Source: Syntrophomonadaceae bacterium
GTDB taxonomy: Bacteria > Bacillota > Syntrophomonadia > Syntrophomonadales > Syntrophomonadaceae
Assembly: GCA_012729835.1 (NCBI GenBank)
Contig: JAAYCK010000108.1
Span: 1-64,000, forward strand
Direction: 5' to 3'
DNA: 64,000 nt
Part shown: one piece after another, positions 16,861-18,290 of the stretch
How positions within the stretch are numbered: the stretch's first letter is position 1
How the letters are laid out: each line of letters starts with the position of its first letter
The notes under the pieces: generated by a model
Database searches by the model: none
What the model saw: the letters and a program-made list of their open reading frames with translations, nothing else
Told to the model about the DNA's origin: nothing
Translations under genes and position numbers: made by a program

Positions 16861-16925
16861 TTCTCCATGAGCGGGAGTACTGGTCGGGTGATCAGTTGGA
16901 TGGAAGCAACCCCAGACAAAACAAG

Positions 16926-17091
16926 ATTGCCGCGTCCCCGGCACTCAATAATAGTATCAGCTTATTAGAGCAGTGCATAATAGGTAGCCGTTTATATTTG
17001 GATTCTCTGAGTGCCGGGTCCTCGCAATGACCAGGCCGGGGCGCCGCGGGGCAATCCTTATGGTGTCATTGCGAGCGCAGCGCGGCAATCT
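16926..17091. repeat. Dispersed-repeat-like element with CATTGCGAG motifs
   Basis: Left arm near 16925-16947 (GATTGCCGCGTC then GGCACTCA) is the rough complement of 17008-17031 (TGAGTGCC then GTCCTCGCAATGAC). A second copy of the GTCATTGCGAG/GGCAATC motif follows at 17065-17091. This resembles the common intergenic CATTGCGAG...GCAATC repeats of many bacterial genomes. It fills most of the 312-base gap after the dismutase gene, and no gene is seen there. Confidence 0.55.
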
Positions 17092-17126
17092 TCCCCGTTC
17101 TCGCAGCATTGACACTTTGATAAGAC

Positions 17127-17163
17127 AAAAAACCGGCAGAGCTGTACGCTCTGCCGGTTTTTT
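17127..17163. terminator. Strong bidirectional terminator
   Basis: AAAAAACCGGCAGAGC (17127-17142) pairs with its complement starting at 17148 around the loop TGTAC, with A-runs on one side and T-runs on the other. It lies 9 bases past the stop of the minus-strand sigma-like fusion gene. Confidence 0.95.
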
Positions 17164-17172
17164 AGGGAAGGA

Positions 17173-18045
17173 CTATTTCAGGTTAATTGTCCAGTTGCCG
17201 TTCATTACGAAGGACGGCCAGGAGATGTCGATGTCATAGGCATCCGCTTCCTTGAAAAACTCAATGGTTACCACGGCGGTATCACCGTCAAAATTGGCAG
17301 AATACTTTTTAATGTCCGGGCCGTCCAGATGAAAACAAGTGATCTTGACATTCTTATCCGCTCCGGTGTTGAGCGCAAAGGTCAACTCGGCCGAGGTCGG
17401 AGAAAGTCGTTTTATGTTCTTGACTACTGCTTTCTGGGCGAATAAATCCACCTCTTGGCTGAGCACCTTTTCTCCATCCTTAGGAATATTGACGGTAAAG
17501 CGGTCAGCTACCTTTTTATAGGTTGCCATTAGGCCCGGCAGCTTAACTGTCAGTTTGCTGTCTTTAGATGCATCTATGTCAAAGGTAGTTATGGGCCAGG
17601 CCTTGGCATTATCCGGTTTGGTCAACTGGTATTTGGTCCCGGCTTGATCAGTGGCATAGATCGGCTCCGGAGGGGCGGGGCCCCCAGCAGTGACCATACC
17701 GTCTTTGCCCAGATTTTCAAAGTTCTTAGTGGCTTGCAGTTCTTGCGGCTTACCAAAGGCATCCAGGGCCTTTTTGCGTCGGTAGGTAAGCGCCTTATAT
17801 TTGGTGAGGATGAGCAGCCAGGTCCTGAAGCTGGCCTTTTCCTCGTCATAAGCGCCAATCTTCACCCAGGCATCGAGAAAAACGTCAGCCACGCATTCTT
17901 CGATGTCTTCCTTGCTGTGTGTCCCCGATAATATCTGGTAAGCCAGGCAGTAGGTTATCCTGCCGTATTTACTGATCATATACTCATAAGCCGAGGTATC
18001 TCGGTTTTTTATTCCCCGGACCAGTTCAACCTGCGAGTATTCCAA
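17173..18045 (-). CDS. Sigma-factor region 2 fused to an anti-sigma-like C-terminal domain
   Basis: Residues 1-95 are an ECF-type sigma region 2: LVRGIKNRDTSAYEYMISKYG, then EDIEECVADVFLDAWVKI and FRTWLLILTKYKALTYRRK. Region 4, needed to bind the -35 box, is absent. From about residue 125 to 290 the protein instead resembles the extracytoplasmic C-terminal domain of DUF4179/DUF5643 anti-sigma proteins (ITTFDIDA, KRLSPTSAELTFALNTG, ISWPSFVMNGNWTINLK). No transmembrane segment is seen. This looks like an in-frame deletion that joined a sigma gene to its downstream anti-sigma gene. TTG 18045 follows GGGAGGTG. It may be inactive or a new regulator. Confidence 0.8.
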   Translation of the reverse strand: MEYSQVELVRGIKNRDTSAYEYMISKYGRITYCLAYQILSGTHSKEDIEECVADVFLDAWVKIGAYDEEKASFRTWLLILTKYKALTYRRKKALDAFGKPQELQATKNFENLGKDGMVTAGGPAPPEPIYATDQAGTKYQLTKPDNAKAWPITTFDIDASKDSKLTVKLPGLMATYKKVADRFTVNIPKDGEKVLSQEVDLFAQKAVVKNIKRLSPTSAELTFALNTGADKNVKITCFHLDGPDIKKYSANFDGDTAVVTIEFFKEADAYDIDISWPSFVMNGNWTINLK

Positions 18046-18290
18046 TCTTTCACCTCCCTTCCCATCCCTTTCACCTATTACTACGTGTCGGGGATGGTAT
18101 ATCTCTTAATTGGATTTGAAAGTATGTAACAATGGCAGTTGCTATTGAAAGAGCATGTTGTGGGTAAACAACTAAGTATTCGTGAAAAATCCACGCTAAG
18201 GCTTGGAAGGCCCGCCCAGAATAAACGAAGTTATTAGATGGAGCTTGTCCGGCAGCCGTTAGAAAGACTGCAACATAAGGCTTAGCCCCC

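Follow-up and report, generated by a model that had tools for sequence, protein, structure and literature searches.

Is an open reading frame that joins part of an ECF sigma factor to part of an anti-sigma factor a new regulator, or is it what remains of an operon that has been lost? The question is raised by a reading frame in the genome of a Syntrophomonadaceae bacterium (GenBank assembly GCA_012729835.1), studied here in a stretch of 64,000 nucleotides (contig JAAYCK010000108.1, positions 1 to 64,000), hereafter called the window. The source genome (3.13 Mb, 99% complete, 186 contigs, 2.7% contamination) belongs to a family whose other members include Syntrophomonas. A first-pass annotation, made from the letters alone, had described the frame as ECF region 2 joined to a DUF4179-type sensor, considered it probably expressed, and offered two readings, either a decoy that binds core polymerase or an inert relic of an adjacent gene pair. 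We regard it as probable, and as the likeliest explanation, that the fusion was left by a deletion of about 1 kb in an ancestral operon and is a young, non-functional relic. The case illustrates one way in which a sigma/anti-sigma module under its own control may disappear: without region 4, the operon should no longer be transcribed from its own promoter, and what is left is a tidy in-frame hybrid that could be annotated, wrongly, as a new regulator.

Structure of the fused gene

The frame lies at 17173..18045 on the minus strand, exactly where the first-pass annotation had placed it, and encodes 290 aa from a TTG start. Its start, ribosome site and terminator are intact, as had also been stated: the ribosome binding site, AGGGAGGT, is located at 18052..18059 (minus), with AGGGAGG 7 nt 5' of the TTG, and a terminator-like palindrome with A and T runs at its flanks, recognised in the sequence and as an opposite-strand self-match, occupies 17127..17163 (minus), the inverted repeat with its T-run beginning about 10 nt past the stop. 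Beyond this palindrome the window carries a dispersed intergenic repeat (16923-17119), which consists of a unit of about 109 bp (16923-17031) and a neighbour (approximately 17020-17119). The rest of the genome contains dozens of copies of these repeats, many of them 85-92% identical, and the first unit has inverted ends (CCCCGGCACTC / GAGTGCCGGG), resembling MITE or REP elements.

The sigma half comprises codons 1-92 (17770..18045, minus) and corresponds to ECF region 2. The HMM searches that had been proposed for both halves returned Pfam Sigma70_r2 at residues 24-93 (E 7e-10), the sole Pfam match in the fusion, and nothing significant for the C-terminal half in Pfam or NCBIfam. In the alignment, conservation of sigma region 2 is complete and takes in the 2.2 segment DIEECVADVFLDAW, and sigma homology stops at about codon 92; region 4, which is present in the intact relative G030, has no Pfam match in the fusion. 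Codon-level comparison with intact pairs places the junction at codons 93-94 (GCC CTG; 17764..17769, minus). The remainder (17176..17766, minus) aligns with the C-terminal ~197 residues of the partner anti-sigma factor, i.e. with its distal extracytoplasmic part. The fusion has no Pfam match to DUF4179 and no strong hydrophobic span, whereas intact partners possess one, their only one, at about residues 56-79; the absence of region 4 and of the membrane anchor is thereby confirmed. Searches of PDB sequences matched sigma region 2 only, with no convincing hit for the anti-sigma profile, and fold searches with two models (the fusion, whose sigma half was modelled unreliably, and the G030 anti-sigma) gave no significant match. 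Finally, no RNA element was found in an Rfam search and no relative of the fusion in IMG/VR.

Probable origin from an overlapping gene pair

Intact neighbours in related genomes, which the first-pass annotation had suggested looking for, were found as overlapping sigma/anti-sigma pairs in four genomes of the same family (G020, G030, G041, G053) and also in Sporotomaculum, Aneurinibacillus, Maledivibacter, G065 and G210. In these pairs an ECF sigma gene (product 181-189 aa) and an anti-sigma gene (product 438-455 aa) overlap, and both halves of the fusion are homologous to the two adjacent genes. Within the family, the N-terminal half is 66-74% identical to the adjoining sigma, and the C-terminal half matches the last ~200 residues of the anti-sigmas with E values of 1e-59 to 2e-69 and 51-58% identity, so that its kinship with anti-sigma factors holds. 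Over the seven pairs that remain when the two distant ones (G065 and G210) are left out, identity is 71-78% for residues 1-92 and 44-59% for residues 94-290, similar to the values among the intact proteins themselves (66-86% for the sigmas, 42-69% for the anti-sigmas). At the junction the fusion reads YRRKK(A)LDAFGKP, where sigma genes have YRRKKRL and anti-sigmas MKLSAFGQP, perhaps with a short microhomology, CTGGA.

In G030, the two stretches that match the fusion are about 1 kb apart, and what lies between them is missing from the source genome. A full anti-sigma query of the G030 type against the whole assembly recovered only residues 248-447, within the fusion, and a full sigma query recovered the fusion plus other ECF sigmas, the latter at no more than 28% identity; region 4, the N-terminal sigma-binding helices, the membrane anchor and the DUF4179-like segment were not found anywhere in the assembly. 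Both flanking pieces thus stand in the order of the intact operon with the middle gone from the genome, the pattern expected of a deletion relic.

The ancestral state would have been a two-gene operon, in which the ECF sigma gene overlapped the gene of a single-pass membrane anti-sigma factor. A deletion of about 1 kb would have started where sigma region 2 ends and reached approximately residue 252 of the anti-sigma, leaving the frame open by chance. The resulting hybrid could presumably not act as a sigma factor, for region 4, needed for the -35 box, is missing, nor as a membrane sensor, as it would lack the anchor and the sigma-binding helices and its sensor part would be left in the cytoplasm. 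The operon was probably positively autoregulated, and its promoter would then have fallen silent once region 4 was lost. The signalling module itself is most likely dispensable.

No second fusion of this kind was found among 63 genomes of the same order or 399 of the same phylum. In G044, the sole other genome of the genus examined, the operon is absent and only sodA is shared with the neighbourhood in the window, so that this genome offers no empty site for comparison. The intact pairs themselves (L024, L021, L022, L025) occupy differing neighbourhoods across genera, none of them adjoining sodA as the fusion does, an indication that the module is mobile, between sites or between genomes.

Extent of the probable deletion

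In the structural model of the intact G030 anti-sigma (mean pLDDT 77, with low confidence at 65-97), three short helices precede the hydrophobic span, and a helix (75-86) and then beta strands follow it. Residues 34-145 resemble curated DUF4179 anti-sigmas in profile-profile comparison (E 4.6e-5, probability 68.5%), and direct Pfam DUF4179 matches of the intact anti-sigmas fall under the cut-off. In RsiV, the membrane span and the amphipathic helices lie inside DUF4179 (PMC6066255). The surviving tail starts at residue 252 of 447 (G030 numbering), in the third predicted strand (250-255), after strands 224-233 and 236-245, which follow a low-confidence linker. The break on the anti-sigma side would consequently fall inside a predicted beta domain and does not look like a domain boundary in the model; that on the sigma side coincides with the end of region 2. 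As judged from the alignments, the fusion has kept distal sensor sequence, past the deleted DUF4179-like segment. The DUF4179 label of the first-pass annotation was hence right in part: the tail does match anti-sigmas and the label fits the ancestral partner, but the DUF4179-like segment itself is among the deleted parts.

Repeated loss in relatives

Three relatives have lost the same operon and left its promoter behind as an orphan copy. G042 is syntenic with the intact G041, and its flanks are 99% and 96% identical to it; the promoter and ~77 codons are kept, followed by DNA from beyond the anti-sigma gene, and the result is an 82-aa remnant (L023, 7310-7609). In the single-contig genome G043 the promoter is retained (L075, 6570-6598) and both genes are gone; its breakpoints differ from those of G042 at both ends, and the two deletions are not nested. 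Similarly, G031 retains the promoter and a 39-aa remnant (L076, about 780-1045). With the window, four losses have left a promoter, and since the deletions in the three relatives are separate, the module is repeatedly discarded in the family. Random deletions within the pair would stay in frame once in about three cases, and one in-frame scar among four is therefore unremarkable. One operon repeatedly lost in a family that includes Syntrophomonas, with the promoter as a marker, forms a small natural series for the decay of ECF systems.

These losses also bear on the possibility that the fusion is an assembly or strain artefact, in which most cells would carry the intact pair and the contig would represent a mis-join or a minority variant. 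The fragmentation and contamination of the assembly would allow for this, and an intact pair would likewise show both halves conserved. Against it, the missing ~1 kb occurs nowhere else in a 99% complete assembly, the junction lies in mid-contig and lacks a long repeat, and relatives have true deletions of the very same operon, one of them in the single-contig G043. We consider an artefact unlikely.

Promoter-like motif and expression

Upstream of the fused gene, at 18107-18079 on the minus strand, the window carries an exact copy of a promoter-like motif, AAGAGA-N16-CGTAGTA, which is common to the intact pairs and to the remnants in the three relatives. It occurs exactly upstream of the pairs in G020, G030, G041, G053, G065, G210, Sporotomaculum and Aneurinibacillus, and with one change upstream of that in Maledivibacter. 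Nine of 63 genomes of the same order contain the exact motif, and in eight of them it marks the sigma operon or its remnant; since a control with the pattern reversed yields about as many matches, which are scattered, the motif convinces by where it occurs and not by how often. The match in G028, with no sigma remnant downstream, was taken as chance. Six genomes (L024, L021, L022, L025, L032, L033) have their only exact copy at the sigma operon itself, which could mean that the sigma has few targets outside its own operon, or that its other targets have looser motifs.

Autoregulation applies, according to one review, to about 55% of the ECFs whose regulons have been predicted and to the majority of ECF operons (PMC8103513). 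Because this is the general rule, the motif is probably the sigma's own promoter, and it provides a testable promoter prediction for the group. Region 4 of an ECF sigma reads the -35 box, and the fusion, being devoid of region 4, should be unable to use the promoter that it has retained. A search upstream of the fused gene for a sigma-A promoter gave no good candidate, and the single weak match falls inside the gene. With a promoter that looks region 4-dependent and none for sigma-A upstream, expression of the fusion appears doubtful, and we cannot follow the first-pass annotation in calling it probable.

Selection and the age of the fusion

Codon branch models yield omega values on the window branch of 0.06 (sigma half; background 0.13) and 0.24 (tail; background 0.26), which are rough because the branches are long and synonymous changes are near saturation. 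With omega fixed at 1 the fit worsens by 12.5 log units for the sigma half and 6.8 for the tail, and positions that the other sequences conserve show no excess of changes in the window. When a neutral phase was placed at the tip of the branch (total length ~2.5 substitutions per codon), the summed log-likelihood changed by -0.9, -1.9 and -4.2 at 0.05, 0.10 and 0.20 substitutions per codon, i.e. a neutral phase longer than about 0.1 (~4% of the branch) fits worse. At a neutral divergence of 0.1 per site, the chance of meeting no stop codon is 4%.

Purifying selection thus extends along the branch without a relaxed tail, which is compatible with a very recent deletion or with constraint. This, together with the undamaged frame, promoter motif and halves, is what speaks against a relic; if the gene is dead, the deletion must be recent, since neither half is damaged and no relaxation is seen. 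From the lack of relaxed evolution it follows that the deletion either dates from about the final 4% of the branch or left a hybrid under constraint, and we favour the former. Old scars are erased, so that a scar still visible will usually be young, like that of G042; this tendency, combined with the lack of a second fusion, favours a recent, non-functional relic.

Constraint would imply that the hybrid is under selection as a chimera of region 2 and sensor, as a decoy or as a region 2 subunit acting together with another region 4 protein at the AAGAGA-N16-CGTAGTA promoter; either role would require expression, and selection after the fusion, and we judge such a chimera quite improbable. A functional decoy could bind core RNA polymerase through region 2 or capture another anti-sigma, damping other sigmas, with the beta-rich tail stabilising the region 2 domain. 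The fully conserved region 2 with its 2.2 segment, the intact frame and the unrelaxed codon models agree with this; a young dead gene, however, would look identical, the fusion occurs in one genome only, its tail is a truncated extracytoplasmic domain, and its likely promoter needs the lost sigma. Literature searches on pseudogenised ECF pairs and on dominant negatives lacking region 4 returned nothing relevant. A core-polymerase decoy is without positive support and very unlikely, while the other half of the original proposal, a relic, is supported by the intact overlapping pairs of relatives and the absence of the missing pieces. That the hybrid might be the region 2 subunit of a two-part sigma with a separate region 4 protein, in analogy to RsoA-SigO, is the least probable reading, for although split sigma factors exist (PMC8103513) and region 2 and the promoter motif are retained, the sigma of this family is otherwise a one-piece protein and the fused tail would have no role in such a scheme.

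Comparison with known systems

Among known pairs of an ECF sigma and a DUF4179 anti-sigma are SigV-RsiV of B. subtilis and BAS1627 of B. anthracis (PDB 3FBQ). The ancestral partner of the relic would have resembled these in its short N-terminal helices, single membrane span, following helix and extracytoplasmic part, and resembles DUF4179 anti-sigmas in the profile of residues 34-145. It differs in a Pfam DUF4179 score under the cut-off, and the window differs further in lacking the DUF4179-like part, with the distal part alone joined to sigma region 2. As in ECF41 and ECF56 (PMC3426412, PMC7730460), an ECF sigma carries a C-terminal extension; those groups, however, retain region 4 in addition to a SnoaL-like domain, whereas in the fusion region 4 is replaced. 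With RsoA of the RsoA-SigO system of B. subtilis (PMC8103513) the fusion shares a sigma region 2 without region 4, but RsoA is dedicated to its partner SigO, and nothing like the extra anti-sigma tail belongs to that system. Further counterparts are the remnants in G042, G043 and G031, where the motif of the same operon was likewise kept, while the sigma was lost in part and the anti-sigma largely or wholly. Unlike those scars, which have left short reading frames or none, the scar in the window is in frame and encodes a hybrid of 290 aa.
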